Assembly: GCA_036273715.1 (NCBI GenBank)
Contig: DASUHB010000052.1
Coordinates: 1-57,301 of the forward strand
DNA: 57,301 nt
Direction: 5' to 3'
From: Gemmatimonadaceae bacterium
GTDB lineage: Bacteria; Gemmatimonadota; Gemmatimonadetes; Gemmatimonadales; Gemmatimonadaceae
Shown: piece by piece, positions 1 through 22,459 of the stretch
Layout: every line of letters starts with the position of its first letter
How positions within the stretch are numbered: position 1 is the stretch's first letter
Program-made: the position numbers and the translations under genes
Notes under the pieces: model-generated
What the model was told of the DNA's origin: nothing
Databases searched by the model: none
Seen by the model: the letters and a program-made list of their open reading frames with translations, nothing else

Positions 1-172
1 TGTCGAGGTCCCAAAGTGCACCGCTGGGCCTCGACGCCCGAACTATGATGGAAACCCCGACCGCCTAACCGCCTAACCGACGACGCCACGGTCACTTCCC
101 ACCCATCGATCAGACGGAGGCAACGGAAGGAGTCAGTTCACGCAGGAAGACCCGTTAGGACTCGCGGGCGGG

Positions 173-700
173 ATGAATACGTACGGCTTTGCCAGCGGCG
201 ATCCTGTCAACTTTAGCGACCCGTTTGGACTCAGTTGTCTGGTCCGGGGCAACTGTACGCAGTCAAATGGGGGGGTCGAGGAAGCCGATGCGCATGAAAG
301 GTGGGTCAGGAGCGCTCAGGGAGTAGTCGACGATGCTGGATTCGGCGATCCTATCGCTCTGTTATCTGGAGGCGAAGAGGTAGAAGAGGGTAAGGCTGCG
401 GTCACTGCAGTAGAAGAGGGCACCGTAGTAATCGGTGAGAACATGAAAGACCGCGTTATACCATATGCCGAAAAGATCGGAGCCAAGTATTATAACGCGG
501 TGGGGAAGCGTGCCGAAAACTGGATGGCGAACAACAGGCGCTGGATTGAGAGAGCGATGAAGGCGGGGAAGAAGGTCGTGGACATCGGCGAGGATGCGTC
601 GCGCACAAAGCGCAGCGACGCCTACCAGATGGAAACGCGCACCCTGCAACGCAACAACTATCCGGTGACCAAGGATCCTCAACCGCCTTCTGAACCGTAG
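173..700 (+). CDS. Orphan Rhs C-terminal toxin tip, 5'-truncated
   Basis: The frame is open from base 77, just after an in-frame TAA, and begins with only the last part of an Rhs core: FTQEDPLGL, then GFASGDPVNFSDPFGL. In Rhs polymorphic toxins the DPxGL motif marks the end of the conserved shell and the start of the variable toxic tip. Here about 135 unrelated, charged residues follow, including GENMKDRVIPYAEKIG and a final segment with DIGEDASR and YQMET. I cannot name the toxin fold. The YD-repeat shell and the secretion signals are missing, so this is a displaced tip of the kind that recombines with a full-length rhs gene elsewhere. ATG 173 lies inside the core motif and may not be a real start. 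A likely immunity gene follows 31 bp downstream. It could equally be a dead remnant. Confidence 0.6.
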   Translation: MNTYGFASGDPVNFSDPFGLSCLVRGNCTQSNGGVEEADAHERWVRSAQGVVDDAGFGDPIALLSGGEEVEEGKAAVTAVEEGTVVIGENMKDRVIPYAEKIGAKYYNAVGKRAENWMANNRRWIERAMKAGKKVVDIGEDASRTKRSDAYQMETRTLQRNNYPVTKDPQPPSEP

Positions 701-731
701 CGGTATGTGTACTCGGACCAAATATCCCACA

Positions 732-1256
732 ATGAGCATCGACTTTCGATCTACCGTTGAAAAATCGTTTGCACCTGTCACTGCAGCTCATGCGCTTCGG
801 CTCTTGAGAGAGGACTCTGATCGCTTTGGATCGGAAGTCGTTATGGGGAACATGACCACAGCGTTGAGGTTTCGCTTGGAGCCGCGCGAAGGGCTTTTTG
901 TTTCCCTTCTCCGCCTTCACGACTCAGGGATTCCCAGTCGCGACCTTGACGACAGGATGCGCGATCCCATCAACGGCTTTGACGTAGATGACCTAATTCA
1001 GCTGCGGGCGCCGCGGTGCGCTGTTTCTTCCAAAGCGCCTTTAGGTGACGAAGCGCTCCAGGCAGCACTACGTGGCTATGCATTTTTCCTCAGCGAGAAC
1101 GGGCAGGACGTCCTTTCCGGTGACTTCTCGGTCTTTTCTGACCTGGCACGGTGCGTCGCAATGAGAATCAGACACTCTCGGCGCGAGGGTTACAGTCTAG
1201 GTCCGGACTCCCTGCGTTTCCTCGAAGCCGCTGATCTTCTTGAGGGATCAGACTAA
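732..1256 (+). CDS. Putative immunity protein paired with Rhs tip
   Basis: This is a 174-residue acidic cytosolic protein with no signal peptide or membrane segment. I chose ATG 732 because its product starts MSIDFRSTVEKSF; an upstream start at 705 adds nine unconvincing residues. The middle (about residues 35-95) has a beta-strand-like pattern with LRFRLEPREGLFVSLLRL, then a helix-rich C-terminus. Small immunity proteins often look like this, but I recognise no named family. The functional call rests on position: it directly follows, on the same strand, an Rhs tip, which is where the cognate immunity gene sits in polymorphic-toxin loci. Confidence 0.5.
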   Translation: MSIDFRSTVEKSFAPVTAAHALRLLREDSDRFGSEVVMGNMTTALRFRLEPREGLFVSLLRLHDSGIPSRDLDDRMRDPINGFDVDDLIQLRAPRCAVSSKAPLGDEALQAALRGYAFFLSENGQDVLSGDFSVFSDLARCVAMRIRHSRREGYSLGPDSLRFLEAADLLEGSD

Positions 1257-1430: not shown

Positions 1431-1910
1431 CTACCGACGTCCGGCGAGATTCACGTAGGTGATGTCCACGTGCCACTGCTCGTGCGTGCGGAGTGGCTGC
1501 ACGAAGCCCGTGCCCTTGCGCGAGGGTCGGTGGTTCCAGCGATCGAGCACGCCCGCCGCGCGCAGCACGCGATACACGGTCGCCGGGCTCACTGCCACCA
1601 CATCGGCATCGAGCATCATGAACGTCAGGCGGCGATAGCCTTCCGGCGCGTGCGTGTCGTGGTAGACGAGAATCGCCTGGCGCTCCGCCGGCGTGAGCCA
1701 GTGATTGCGCGGCGTCTGCCCGTTGTGCGTGTGTTCACGCGGCCGTAGCGCTCCGCCCAGCGATAGAACTGCGTGGGCCGAATGCCTAACTGCCCGAGGA
1801 CCACCGCGTGAGAGACTCGGTTCGGGCGCTGAACTGGCGCAGGAAGTCGACGGGCGTATCGCGGAGATCGGGAGGCACCCATCGCTGTCTCAGCTCTCCC
1901 CAAGTTTTTT
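1431..1910 (-). pseudogene. IS3-family transposase OrfB, frameshifted and truncated
   Basis: Joining two frames on the minus strand recovers a normal N-terminal half of OrfB. It has an HTH region (QLGIRPTQFYRWAERYG), the segment TPAERQAILVYHDTHAPEG, the HTH_21 region (SPATVYRVLRAAGVLDRW) and the start of the rve integrase core (EQWHVDITYVNLAG). The frame breaks near 1810, and the gene stops right after the first catalytic Asp (in VDITY), so the second Asp and the Glu are missing. It cannot encode an active transposase. Confidence 0.85.
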
Positions 1911-2282
1911 TTTCAACGCGAGATACTCTTCCGACACCTCGGCGATGACGGCGTCCTTCTTCGCGAGCTTGGCCTCGAGCGCGGCGATCCGCGCGCGCTC
2001 CCCGGCCGCCGTCTGCGCCTCGCCCCGCCGCGTCCGGCCATCCTGGAGCGCCGCGCTCAGGTGCTCGAGCGCCTGGCGCTGCCAGAGATAGAACAGCGTG
2101 GGCTGGATGCGGTACTCGTCGCAGAGGTCCGACACCGGGATCTTGTCCACCAGATCGCGGCGCAGGATCGTCGCCTTCTCCTCCGGCGTGAACGACCGGC
2201 GACGCGCTCCATTCTCTCCAGGCTCTCGACTCACCGACTCCTCCGTGGTCGCAGTGCATGGTGTGGGGCCGGTCGGAGTCAC
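1890..2282 (-). CDS. IS3-family transposase OrfA
   Basis: The 130-residue product has the IS3 OrfA layout. A helix-turn-helix of the HTH_Tnp_1 type (about residues 29-75, with RRRSFTPEEKATILRR and a second helix PVSDLCDEYRIQPTLFYLWQ) binds the IS ends. A leucine-zipper-like coiled coil follows to the C-terminus (ARIAALEAKLAKKDAVIAEV). The frame ends KKKLGES beside the A9 slippery run. A -1 slip there would enter orfB at WGELRQRWV, the usual way IS3 elements make the OrfAB fusion. This gene looks intact, but the element it belongs to is broken. Confidence 0.85.
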   Translation of the reverse strand: MTPTGPTPCTATTEESVSREPGENGARRRSFTPEEKATILRRDLVDKIPVSDLCDEYRIQPTLFYLWQRQALEHLSAALQDGRTRRGEAQTAAGERARIAALEAKLAKKDAVIAEVSEEYLALKKKLGES

Positions 2283-2318: not shown

Positions 2319-2349
2319 AACTCGCCTAACTACTGCGGTTAGGCGAGTT
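2319..2349. repeat. Perfect 12-bp inverted repeat built on GCCTAAC
   Basis: AACTCGCCTAAC, a 7-nt loop, then GTTAGGCGAGTT. The arms are perfectly complementary and each contains one copy of the window-wide 7-mer. It lies just upstream of the IS3 orfA start, outside any gene. It could act as a terminator-like hairpin, but no T-run follows on either strand. Confidence 0.9.
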
Positions 2350-2702: not shown

Positions 2703-2861
2703 CGACTTATGAAAGATGCGAAGCCCAAGCATTGGCTGAACGATTGATCCGTCGCCCACACGGAGACAGGGGCCCCGCCGCCGTCAGTCGACGATACATG
2801 GCGAAAGATAACCCCGCAGCGCCCGCCGCAGAGTGAACCGGGCTGCCCCGCGTACCGATGC

Positions 2862-3281
2862 CTAACTCTGGGCCGACGACTGCACCGCCCCGCACTCCCG
2901 GCATTGGTCCGCCCCCACGTGCCGCAGCGCCTTTCCGCACTTCACACACGGCGCACCGTATTGCGACACCACGTGATGCCACACGAGGTTCGGGTCGGAC
3001 TCCGCCACGCCCGTGAACATCTCGTAGCCCACCGCGAGATGCCGGAGCTTCCGTTGGGCAGGCGTCGCATCGGCGCGCAACGGCAGCGGCGCCGGCAGCC
3101 CGCGCCGCACGCGCTCACGCTCGATTACGGCCATCCGGTTCGCCTCACCGCCGCCCGACCGATGCGACTCGACCAGCACGGCCCACTCATCATCGTCCAG
3201 CATCGGGAGGTCGCGCCGACACCGCCAACACCAGAGCGTTTTCACGAGACGTGCACTCGGAAGAGGAAACCTGCGCTGCAT
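2862..3281 (-). CDS. Zinc-ribbon protein of unknown function
   Basis: This is a 139-residue protein with a metal-binding pair at each end. The N-terminus has CWRCRRDLPMLDDDEW and the C-terminus has CVKCGKALR followed by CRECG. Between them is a helical segment with HLAVGYEMFTGVAESDPNLVWHH. Two CxxC pairs near the C-terminus suggest one complete zinc ribbon there, while the N-terminal CxxC may need a partner. I recall similar conserved hypotheticals in GC-rich soil bacteria but no function. It is a monocistronic-looking minus-strand gene just downstream of tag. Confidence 0.7.
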   Translation of the reverse strand: MQRRFPLPSARLVKTLWCWRCRRDLPMLDDDEWAVLVESHRSGGGEANRMAVIERERVRRGLPAPLPLRADATPAQRKLRHLAVGYEMFTGVAESDPNLVWHHVVSQYGAPCVKCGKALRHVGADQCRECGAVQSSAQS

Positions 3282-3319
3282 CGGTCCGTCATCGCATCCG
3301 CCCGCTCCCTCCTAACGCC

Positions 3320-3928
3320 TCACGCGCGAGTCCGCAACCGCCGGCCGCCGGCCGTCGCCTCGCCGCCGACCTCGCTGCGCCGGAAGCACCCGACCAGATG
3401 GTCGTTCACCAACCCAACGGCCTGCATGAACGAGTAGCAGATCGTCGTGCCGACGAAGTTGAAGCCGCGGCGCTTGAGATCGGCGCTCAAGGCGTCGGAC
3501 ATGGCGGTGCGCGGCGGCACCTCGTTCTGCCGGCGCCACTGCCCAACGATCGGCGCACCTTCGACGACGCCCCACACGTACGCGTCGAAACTGCCGGCCT
3601 CGTTCTGCACGGCCAACATCGCCCGCGCGTTGCGCACCGCGCTCTCGATCTTGAGTCGATTGCGCACGAGACCGGGATCCTCGAGCAACCGGCGCTGCCT
3701 GGCCGGCGTGAACCGCGCCACACGCTCAGCCTCGAAGCCCTCGAACGCCTCGCGATACCGGTCCCGCTTGCGCAGGATGGTCTCCCAGCTCAACCCGGCC
3801 TGCGCACCCTCGAGCACCAGGAACTCGAGCAACGTCCGGTCCTCGTGCACCGGCACGCCCCATTCGGCGTCGTGATACGCGATGCCTAACGGCGTGGCGG
3901 CCCACGCGCATCGCGTCCGCTCGGTCAT
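3320..3928 (-). CDS. tag: DNA-3-methyladenine glycosylase I
   Basis: The product cuts N3-methyladenine from alkylated DNA, starting base-excision repair in the cytosol. The 202-residue length is normal for Tag. Family motifs run in order: CAWAATPLGIAYHDAEWG at the N-terminus, with the conserved Cys and Trp that help form the pocket; LEGAQAGLSWETILRKR, the helix-hairpin region; and GFNFVGTTICYSFMQAVGLVNDH near the C-terminus. Tag proteins bind zinc through Cys and His ligands near both ends; candidates here are Cys7, His19 and a C-terminal His/Cys (VNDHLVGCF). Its start overlaps the stop of the upstream gene (ATGA), so the two are co-translated. Confidence 0.95.
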   Translation of the reverse strand: MTERTRCAWAATPLGIAYHDAEWGVPVHEDRTLLEFLVLEGAQAGLSWETILRKRDRYREAFEGFEAERVARFTPARQRRLLEDPGLVRNRLKIESAVRNARAMLAVQNEAGSFDAYVWGVVEGAPIVGQWRRQNEVPPRTAMSDALSADLKRRGFNFVGTTICYSFMQAVGLVNDHLVGCFRRSEVGGEATAGGRRLRTRA

Positions 3929-20674: not shown

Positions 20675-22459
20675 TTAGACCATTGGATCGGCTGGCACCG
20701 AGCCGTGAGACGTGGGTTCCTCGCTCTCCATTGGGATCACCTTGGACGGCGTCTCGGGGCGAGGCGGCTGCTCTTCCGGCACGTTCGTCACCGCGAGCAC
20801 GATGCGCCGGTGAATCGGGTCGACCTCGAGGATGCGCAGGTCGAGATTCATCCCCTCGTACACGACGTCGGCCGGACTGACCACGGTCTTGCCCATGTTC
20901 AGCTGGCTGATCGGCACGAAGCCCTCGATGTCGTTGCCGATGTCGACCACGACGCCCTTGTCCATGAGCCGTGCAACCTTGCCGCGCATCTCCATGCCCA
21001 CGGGGTACGTCTCGCCGATGCGCAGCCACGGATCTTCGGTGGCCTGCTTGAGTCCGAGCGAAATCCGCTTGTTCTCGGCGTCGATGTTCAAGATCACGAC
21101 GTCCACCGTGTCGCCCTTTTTCACGACTTCCGACGGATGCTGGACGCGCTTGGTCCAGGACATGTCGGAGATGTGAATGAGGCCATCGATGCCCGGTTCG
21201 ATCTCGACGAACGCGCCGAACGACGTGAGGTTGCGCACCTTGCCCGAGATCCGGGTGCCCACCGGATACTTGTACGGCAGCACGACCCAGGGATCCTGCT
21301 CCGTCTGCTTCATGCCTAACGAGATCTTCTCTTCGTTCGGATCGACCTTGAGCACGACGGCTTCGATCACTTCGCCGATCGACACGAGTTTGGACGGATG
21401 CCGCACGTTGCGCGTCCAGCTCATCTCGCTGATGTGCACCAGTCCTTCGATGCCCGGCTCGAGCTCGATGAACGCGCCGTAGTTGGTGATCGACACCACC
21501 TTGCCGTGGACGCGCGTGCCGACCGGATACTTCTCGGCGACGTCCTTCCACGGATAGCTCTGGAGCTGCTTGAGGCCGAGCGAGATGCGCTCGCGCTCCC
21601 AGTCGATGTCGAGGATTTTGACTTCGAGCTCCTGGCCGATGTGCACGAGCTCGGAGGGATGCGAGATGCGGCCCCACGACATGTCGGTGATGTGGAGGAG
21701 ACCGTCCACGCCGCCCAGGTCGATGAACGCCCCGAAGTCGGTGATGTTCTTGACGACACCTTTGCGAATCTGGTCCTTCTGCAGCTCCTTCATCAGCTTC
21801 TCGCGCTTGCCGGCCCGCTCGACTTCGAGGATCACCCGACGCGAGACGACGATGTTGCGGCGGCGCTTGTTGAGCTTAATGATCTTGAACTCGTACTTCT
21901 GGCCTAACAACTCGTCAATGTTAGGCACGCGGCGCAAGGCGATCTGCGAGCCGGGGAGGAACGCGTCGACGCCCATGAGGTCGACCACCACGCCGCCCTT
22001 GATCTTCTTGACGAGGGTGCCTTCCACGGGCTGGTCGTTCTCGTATGCCTGACGGATGCGCTCCCAGACGCGCATGAAGTCGGCTTTCTTCTTGGAGAGA
22101 ACGACGGAGCCTTCCTGGTCCTCGAGGTGCTCGAGCAGGACTTCGACTTCGTCGCCCGGTTTCAATTCCGGATGGTCCTTGAACTCCTCGAGCGGCACGG
22201 CGCCTTCGGATTTGAATCCGATGTCGAGGATGACCATGTTGTCCCGGATCTCCAGGACCTTGCTCTTGACAATCTCGCCCTCGTCGATGGACGCAAGCGT
22301 CCCGGCGTAGAGCTCGATCATGCGCGCTTCTTCTTCCGGCGAGTACTCGTCCTCGTCCCAGCGGTTGTCGCCGTGGGCTAAGAGGCGGAGGGCTCCGCGG
22401 TCGTGATCGCGCCGGATGGTAGCGGTGTCGTGCGTGTCGTCGGTTTCGAGTTCAGGCAT
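20675..22459 (-). CDS. rpsA: 30S ribosomal protein S1
   Basis: The 594-residue protein contains six S1 (OB-fold) repeats. The first two are the ribosome-binding, less conserved ones (EGEIVKSKVLEIRDNMVILDIG near residue 60 and VEGTLVKKIKGGVVVDLMGVDAFLPGS near 145). The last four are strongly alike, each with GKV..ITNYGAFIELEPGI-type strands followed by GLVHISEMSWT and a KVLSIGQ-like linker. It helps load mRNA onto the 30S subunit. A good AGGAG lies ahead of the ATG. cmk and rpsA are neighbours in many genomes; here a GxxExxY gene and repeats separate them. A close inverted pair of the window-wide 7-mer (21902 and 21920) lies in the coding sequence. Confidence 0.96.
   Translation of the reverse strand: MPELETDDTHDTATIRRDHDRGALRLLAHGDNRWDEDEYSPEEEARMIELYAGTLASIDEGEIVKSKVLEIRDNMVILDIGFKSEGAVPLEEFKDHPELKPGDEVEVLLEHLEDQEGSVVLSKKKADFMRVWERIRQAYENDQPVEGTLVKKIKGGVVVDLMGVDAFLPGSQIALRRVPNIDELLGQKYEFKIIKLNKRRRNIVVSRRVILEVERAGKREKLMKELQKDQIRKGVVKNITDFGAFIDLGGVDGLLHITDMSWGRISHPSELVHIGQELEVKILDIDWERERISLGLKQLQSYPWKDVAEKYPVGTRVHGKVVSITNYGAFIELEPGIEGLVHISEMSWTRNVRHPSKLVSIGEVIEAVVLKVDPNEEKISLGMKQTEQDPWVVLPYKYPVGTRISGKVRNLTSFGAFVEIEPGIDGLIHISDMSWTKRVQHPSEVVKKGDTVDVVILNIDAENKRISLGLKQATEDPWLRIGETYPVGMEMRGKVARLMDKGVVVDIGNDIEGFVPISQLNMGKTVVSPADVVYEGMNLDLRILEVDPIHRRIVLAVTNVPEEQPPRPETPSKVIPMESEEPTSHGSVPADPMV

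Follow-up and report, generated by a model that had tools for sequence, protein, structure and literature searches.

The window analysed here is the whole stretch of 57,301 bases and corresponds to contig C52 of the 81-contig genome of a Gemmatimonadaceae bacterium. Its first positions hold the end of an Rhs core, an open C-terminal tip and a second small open reading frame (ORF) on the same strand. The features of this region are as follows.

1 to 133, plus strand: 5' junction block, specific to orphans and common to other orphan cassettes of the genome
62 to 69 and 70 to 77, plus strand: tandem CGCCTAAC inside the junction block
1 to 141: assembly overlap with contig C10
134 to 232, plus strand: end of the Rhs-associated core (TIGR03696 positions 44 to 76), ending in DPFGL
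173 to 700, plus strand: ORF that opens at the first available start codon (ATG) and runs through the tip, probably silent in its present state
233 to 415, plus strand: tip linker, whose first residues, SCLVRGNCTQS, resemble the orphan C66:1479-2126 and the Rhs frame of C49
416 to 697, plus strand: toxin-like domain (VIGE-M ... N..W ... M..G ... D-G ... S..Y..E ... Y), without a database name
705 to 1256, plus strand: candidate immunity ORF of 183 codons (174 from the ATG at 732)
1890 to 2282, minus strand: transposase remnant (HTH_Tnp_1, 33.7 bits) just 3' of the cassette

The core tail comprises the final 33 positions of the Rhs core and occupies residues 20-52 of the 77-700 translation. Its TIGR03696 score of 35 bits exceeds the cut-off of 32.5, so the Rhs tail is not a chance match. 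The frame 77-700 is open, and its first in-frame ATG, GTG or TTG is at position 173. Because no start codon precedes this position in the frame, the tip appears to be untranslated unless it is joined to upstream sequence. DPFGL forms residues 16-20 of ORF 173-700 and stands directly before the variable tip, which is 155 residues long and not ~135, as an earlier note on this DNA had estimated. The next ORF on the same strand follows the tip stop codon after 4 or 31 bases, depending on its start. The GC content of the tip (0.567) and of the downstream ORF (0.557) is low against that of the window (0.671), which fits a foreign origin. The locus is an orphan Rhs-CT with a candidate immunity gene, a finding that is real and ordinary in kind.

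Base 1 of the window is the end of the contig, and bases 1-141 are an exact reversed copy of bases 1-141 of contig C10. In the orientation found, the minus strand of C10 runs into the window, and the array therefore continues in C10; neither the contig edge nor this continuation was part of the earlier note. C10 carries orphan tips at 3389-2694 and 1847-1227 on its minus strand, and contig C66 carries three more, at 10-426, 1479-2126 and 2762-3379. The genome thus has six orphans over C10, C52 and C66, and every tip is different. The five further tips, together with the score of the core tail, bear out the earlier reading of the window tip as an orphan Rhs tip.

In five of the six orphans, the core tail is preceded by a common non-core block, and within this junction block the second C10 orphan is 84-87% identical to the window cassette over 231-345 bases. 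The sixth orphan, C10:3389-2694, keeps more of the core. The tip of C66:10-426 is short (87 residues), and a Pfam search with the five C10 and C66 orphan frames gave no match at cut-off. The block upstream of the orphans resembles a HicA remnant but is not claimed as one, since its Pfam score of 19.8 bits stays below the cut-off of 27. Longer cores are found in the Rhs genes of C76-C77, two contigs joined by an overlap of 141 bases, and in those of C49 and C71, whose first 141 bases are identical. Between the window core tail and the rhs sequences of C49, C71 and C77 and the tip at the end of C62, the longest exact match is 11-20 bases, so exchange by simple homology looks hard today in this genome; the long-core C10 orphan shares 26 bases. 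The window cassette is not a lone relic, and detached tips with likely antidote genes are kept in a row.

The tip has no match in Pfam, NCBIfam or PADLOC, where NCBIfam finds the core tail only; the profile search of the residues after DPFGL that had been proposed earlier thus returned no named family. In PHROGs, the best match is phrog_12873, a family of unknown function (E 0.014). No relatives were found in phages or viral contigs, and the window tip itself matched nothing when used as a plasmid query. A scan of species genomes found one relative, at the contig edge of the actinomycete sequence JANYCN010000044.1, with 38% identity over query residues 58-163 and no clear immunity ORF right after its tip. 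With this relative as the query, two Leptospira plasmids were found, and one of these led to a third; the plasmid relatives are just these three Leptospira records, even at E values up to 10. In all three, the tip ends an Rhs reading frame (two annotated RHS genes and one unannotated), and it is fused to longer Rhs proteins in FH586_RS21360 (627 codons with the stop) and MAL06_RS20840. The profile of the window and actinomycete tips against the three Leptospira tips gave 98.1% in hhalign (E 8.9e-14). The expectation that full-length Rhs proteins would end in the same kind of tip was therefore confirmed in Leptospira, in the form of related tips.

Across five rows from three lineages, 17 residues are invariant: V, I, G, E, M, A, Y, N, W, M, G, D, G, S, Y, E and Y. 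The family forms the C-terminal end of each protein and begins near VIGE, which leaves ~94 residues in the window. These last ~94 residues are a putative toxin-like family absent from Pfam, NCBIfam and PADLOC, and none of the libraries searched has a name for this tip family. Clear tip matches beyond the Rhs tail were limited to one of 179 genomes of the family Gemmatimonadaceae and one of 395 sampled genomes of the phylum Gemmatimonadota, in both cases the window's own. One weak hit in a family genome covers 38 positions with an internal stop (E 0.007). Eleven weak phylum hits (E 0.002-0.01) were dropped, as the tblastn rows shown did not have the conserved motif. In the Leptospira tips, the new domain is preceded by an N-terminal stretch matching positions 9-80 of the 193 of Ntox10 (L076:3758-3967 and L077:2755-2970), an arrangement that may reflect a swap inside a known toxin family.

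Against solved structures, the tip sequence gave nothing, and a four-row tip profile gave noise at E >= 0.18. The structure model of the tip, built from a two-row alignment, was too poor for use (mean pLDDT 47.8), which makes both fold and catalysis guesses. Strands and helices alternate in the model, a predicted beta-alpha alternation. Foldseek with this model returned no hit at E <= 0.001, and the best hits, at E 0.1, were generic alpha/beta proteins. We suggest only tentatively that the tip is an alpha/beta-fold enzyme active inside the target cell, with candidate active-site residues E, D and E from the invariant set.

The protein encoded downstream of the tip is acidic (pI 5.1-5.5), whereas the toxin domain is basic (pI 9.6). 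The earlier note had described an acidic protein of 174 residues, and this agrees with the product counted from the ATG at 732. No relatives were found in Pfam, NCBIfam, PHROGs, PADLOC, plasmids, viral contigs or solved structures, and the 179 family genomes gave just three weak partial hits (E 0.003-0.008). The model of this protein, predicted from a single sequence, was too poor for use (mean pLDDT 42.9). All three Leptospira loci have a gene for 161-167 residues directly after the tip; compared with these proteins, the window ORF has no detectable relation (hhalign 2%). The tips of L. weilii and L. noguchii share 76% identity, against 25% for the genes behind them, so a lack of similarity between ORFs at 30% tip identity says little. 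No other genome was found in which the downstream ORF occurs with the same tip, a search of low power for genes that diverge this fast. Because the ORF has no detectable relative, an immunity role rests on its position, size and charge, and by these it is likely to be the immunity gene. Of the proposed new toxin-immunity pair, the unnamed tip therefore stands, and the partner is supported by its placement and properties and not by joint occurrence elsewhere. Likewise, of the two observations on which the earlier note had made its reading depend, a match of the tip to an intact Rhs protein was found, and co-occurrence of the downstream gene was not.

Arrays of orphan tips also occur in sister genera; these arrays were reached by way of the window tip and were not sampled blindly. 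In array L054 of genome G138, which comprises 11 orphan tips, every cassette starts with the identical 17 bases GCCCCGCCACGCAGCGC, preceded by unrelated DNA, and in the core tail after this boundary the third codon positions are invariant at 8 of 28. A second G138 array of five copies has 13 invariant boundary bases and 10 of 28 invariant third positions, and an array of seven copies in G140 has 17 and 4 of 28; the width of the boundary was set after inspection of the alignment, so p values for these counts are optimistic and are not proof. A further G140 boundary, L058:6857, lies outside the counts. The arrays of G138 and G140 and two of the three G133 orphans have CCACGCAG where intact genes have TTCACGCAG. 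The TIGR03696 match begins at position 46 in 17 of 17 G138 orphan rows (21 rows, from which 4 long-core rows are excluded) and in 7 of 8 G140 rows (11 rows minus 3). The junction of the window is only in part like this boundary, being longer and keeping TTC. A short fixed 5' boundary with unrelated DNA before it is absent from the window's genome, which has the block of about 230-345 bases instead.

Of 10 tip sequences scanned from within the first G138 array and from its end, 6 have no match; an M23 peptidase (71.8 bits) and a DUF4329 protein score above their cut-offs, and a deaminase and Tox-URI2 score below theirs. A hairpin was seen by eye at the G138 boundary. Both G138 arrays (L054:1-6284 and L056:11282-14317) adjoin type II secretion genes (T2SSE, T2SSF and Secretin), and a link of these genes to delivery is a guess. 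In addition, the core tail of each G138 array matches a nearby rhs gene of the same genome (GGVNQYGYVGG / TQR in array 1, TQP in array 2; L054, L081 and L056), as if tails and the resident rhs gene were kept matched.

A Phage_integrase gene (L055:783-1718) adjoins the first G138 array, and close relatives are found in the second G138 array, G133 and G140. These recombinases score below every NCBIfam cut-off for XerC, XerD and IntI. They have invariant R, K, H, R, H and Y residues, which we take to be the catalytic ones. A search of 177 family genomes with a profile of these four recombinases returned six members at E < 1e-80, followed by a gap to E 5e-66. Rhs tails lie in the loci of 5 of these 6 members (clade A6) and of 0 of 24 weaker Xer hits, one weaker hit having no locus. 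As four of the six members had gone into the profile, the fresh tests are G009 and G134. In G009, the recombinase has an orphan tip and an Rhs gene as neighbours; that of G134 is on a 4,262-base contig with no Rhs tail. Among the 395 phylum genomes, the clade occurs in G138 and G133 only, at a limit of 1e-68. Two of the array recombinases carry an in-frame N-terminal extension of ~300 residues (L056:3461-5311 and L057:9666-11636), which in the G138 protein (L056:3461-4340) has no Pfam match. The window's genome has no clade member at 1e-60, only weaker hits on C15, C33 and C62, the last ~39 kb from the Rhs tip of that contig. For the window, a recombinase-served bank is therefore only a lead. 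For the sister genera, the fixed boundaries and adjacent recombinase suggest an integron-like bank of tips.

We consider it likely that window positions 134-1256 are one cassette of a multi-cassette rhs locus, namely a displaced Rhs-CT with its own rhsI. The observed basis is the core tail, the open tip, the adjacent ORF, the orphan cassettes with the same junction on C10 and C66, and the long-core Rhs genes elsewhere in the genome. In Dickeya, orphan Rhs-CT/RhsI modules work as functional toxin/immunity pairs, according to the accessible text of PMC3150448, and delivery by an Rhs shell and cognate protection are proposed here by analogy with that work. The tip, lacking a delivery part and start signal of its own, would stay silent until recombination in the conserved tail fused it to a full rhs core. 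Once delivered to the inside of a neighbouring bacterium and released, the fused tip would act there as an alpha/beta enzyme, with active-site residues best guessed as E (VIGE), D (D-G) and E (S..Y..E). Kin would be protected by the acidic downstream protein through binding to the basic toxin domain. Displaced tips as a reservoir for changing the warhead of an rhs gene, as put forward in the earlier note, are plausible.

The same observations could also describe a decayed relic, an old displaced tip beside a transposase remnant (1890-2282) that is no longer exchanged or expressed. The late start codon at 173, the short exact matches of the tail to the intact rhs genes and the 87-residue tip of C66:10-426 would agree with decay. 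However, the open frames of the tip and of the ORF behind it extend for 155 and 174-183 codons, and the window tip retains all 17 residues that are invariant across the three lineages, so we regard a relic as quite improbable. It is also unlikely that the downstream ORF is an unrelated or mismatched gene. Such a reading would draw on the finding of this ORF with the tip nowhere else and on its lack of similarity to the genes behind the Leptospira tips, but immunity genes drift so fast there that none would be expected at 30% tip identity, and the small gap, shared strand and complementary charge argue for a matched pair.

How the cassette reached its place is a related matter. Placement by site-specific recombination as in the sister genera, with the enzyme lost, located elsewhere or of another type, seems to us rather unlikely. 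It would be in keeping with the fixed 5' boundaries of the G138, G140 and G133 arrays, with the recombinase clade beside them and with a similar orphan junction (..AAGGGATCACTTCACGCAG) in G000, G018 and G009, less exact in G158. On the other hand, the window's genome has only the weaker Xer-like hits, its junction block is long enough that it could serve RecA, and C10:3389-2694 keeps a longer core, as homologous recombination would give. Broader still, and a doubtful possibility, is that the Rhs toxin-immunity modules of this bacterial family are true mobile cassettes made of a conserved 5' attachment sequence, the last ~30 rhs-core codons and the module. Several genomes would store them in arrays on which a dedicated tyrosine recombinase of Xer-like type acts, in some cases as a fusion with a large N-terminal part that has no name, for an integron-like reload of the resident rhs warhead. 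The window cassette would belong to that pool in a lineage with no adjacent enzyme, and its tip would be a new toxin family.

A displaced cassette with its own candidate immunity gene, the reading preferred here, has close counterparts. The orphan rhs-CT/rhsI and cdiA-CT/cdiI modules in the accessible text of PMC3150448 show the same truncated tip after DPxGL with no start signal, the same small gene behind it and several modules in a row. The window differs from them in a tip family unnamed in Pfam, NCBIfam and PADLOC and in the non-core junction block common to the orphans of its genome. The C-terminal displacement arrays of enterobacterial rhs genes (PMC2935791, as far as its accessible text goes) are the same strings of dissociated tips with a piece of core. 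Their core fragments vary in length, in contrast to the one fixed start codon in G138 and G140, and no integrase is known there to co-occur, whereas a recombinase is adjacent in G138, G140, G133 and G009. That text attributes detached-tip arrays to RecA-type recombination via circles, as rhs genes had no known integrase next to them. Similarly, a 2017 study of T6SS immunity arrays states, in its accessible part, that there was so far no evidence for integrase-aided insertion of effector-immunity genes (PMC5361080).

For the sister-genus arrays, the nearest precedent appears to be the rAID clusters of Bacteroidales, which in the accessible text of PMC12247911 have a tyrosine recombinase, small immunity genes and conserved intergenic motifs. 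The likeness lies in the tyrosine recombinase, the array of small genes and the conserved intergenic motifs; unlike rAID clusters as described there, the cassettes here carry a toxin tip and a candidate immunity gene, and the motif borders the Rhs core tail. Chromosomal integrons also have head-to-tail cassettes near a tyrosine recombinase. However, the sister recombinases fall far below the IntI cut-off (TIGR02249, 119 bits at best against 265), and the conserved site of the sister cassettes is at their 5' end, with none seen behind the last cassette of the first G138 array. In the titles and opening lines of abstracts of the open-licence papers listed, no description of Rhs tip arrays with a tyrosine recombinase was found. 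How rhs genes gain new warheads has been an open question since 2009, and the sister arrays offer a concrete recombinase and a boundary of 13-17 bases for testing. The window adds one unnamed toxin-like family, which an actinomycete contig and Leptospira also carry and which offers residues for mutation. Taken together, the evidence suggests that sister genera have a tip bank linked to a recombinase, a wider setting more interesting than the window.

The window is also rich in a short motif. GCCTAAC occurs at 75 sites, 54 of them on the plus strand, and CGCCTAAC occurs 39 times against 1.02 expected. Within 108.8 kb of the window's genome, GCCTAAC is found 149 times, and it is also frequent in the loci of G158 and G154; ~161 kb of loci from G138, G133, G140, G009 and G018 hold 2. 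GCCTAAC/GTTAGGC as the core of an attC site was rejected, since the motif runs throughout the window and five of the eight sampled genomes have almost none of it in their loci. It is a candidate chi-like or uptake motif. Inverted pairs of GCCTAAC at window positions 2324-2344 and 21902-21926 could form terminator hairpins.
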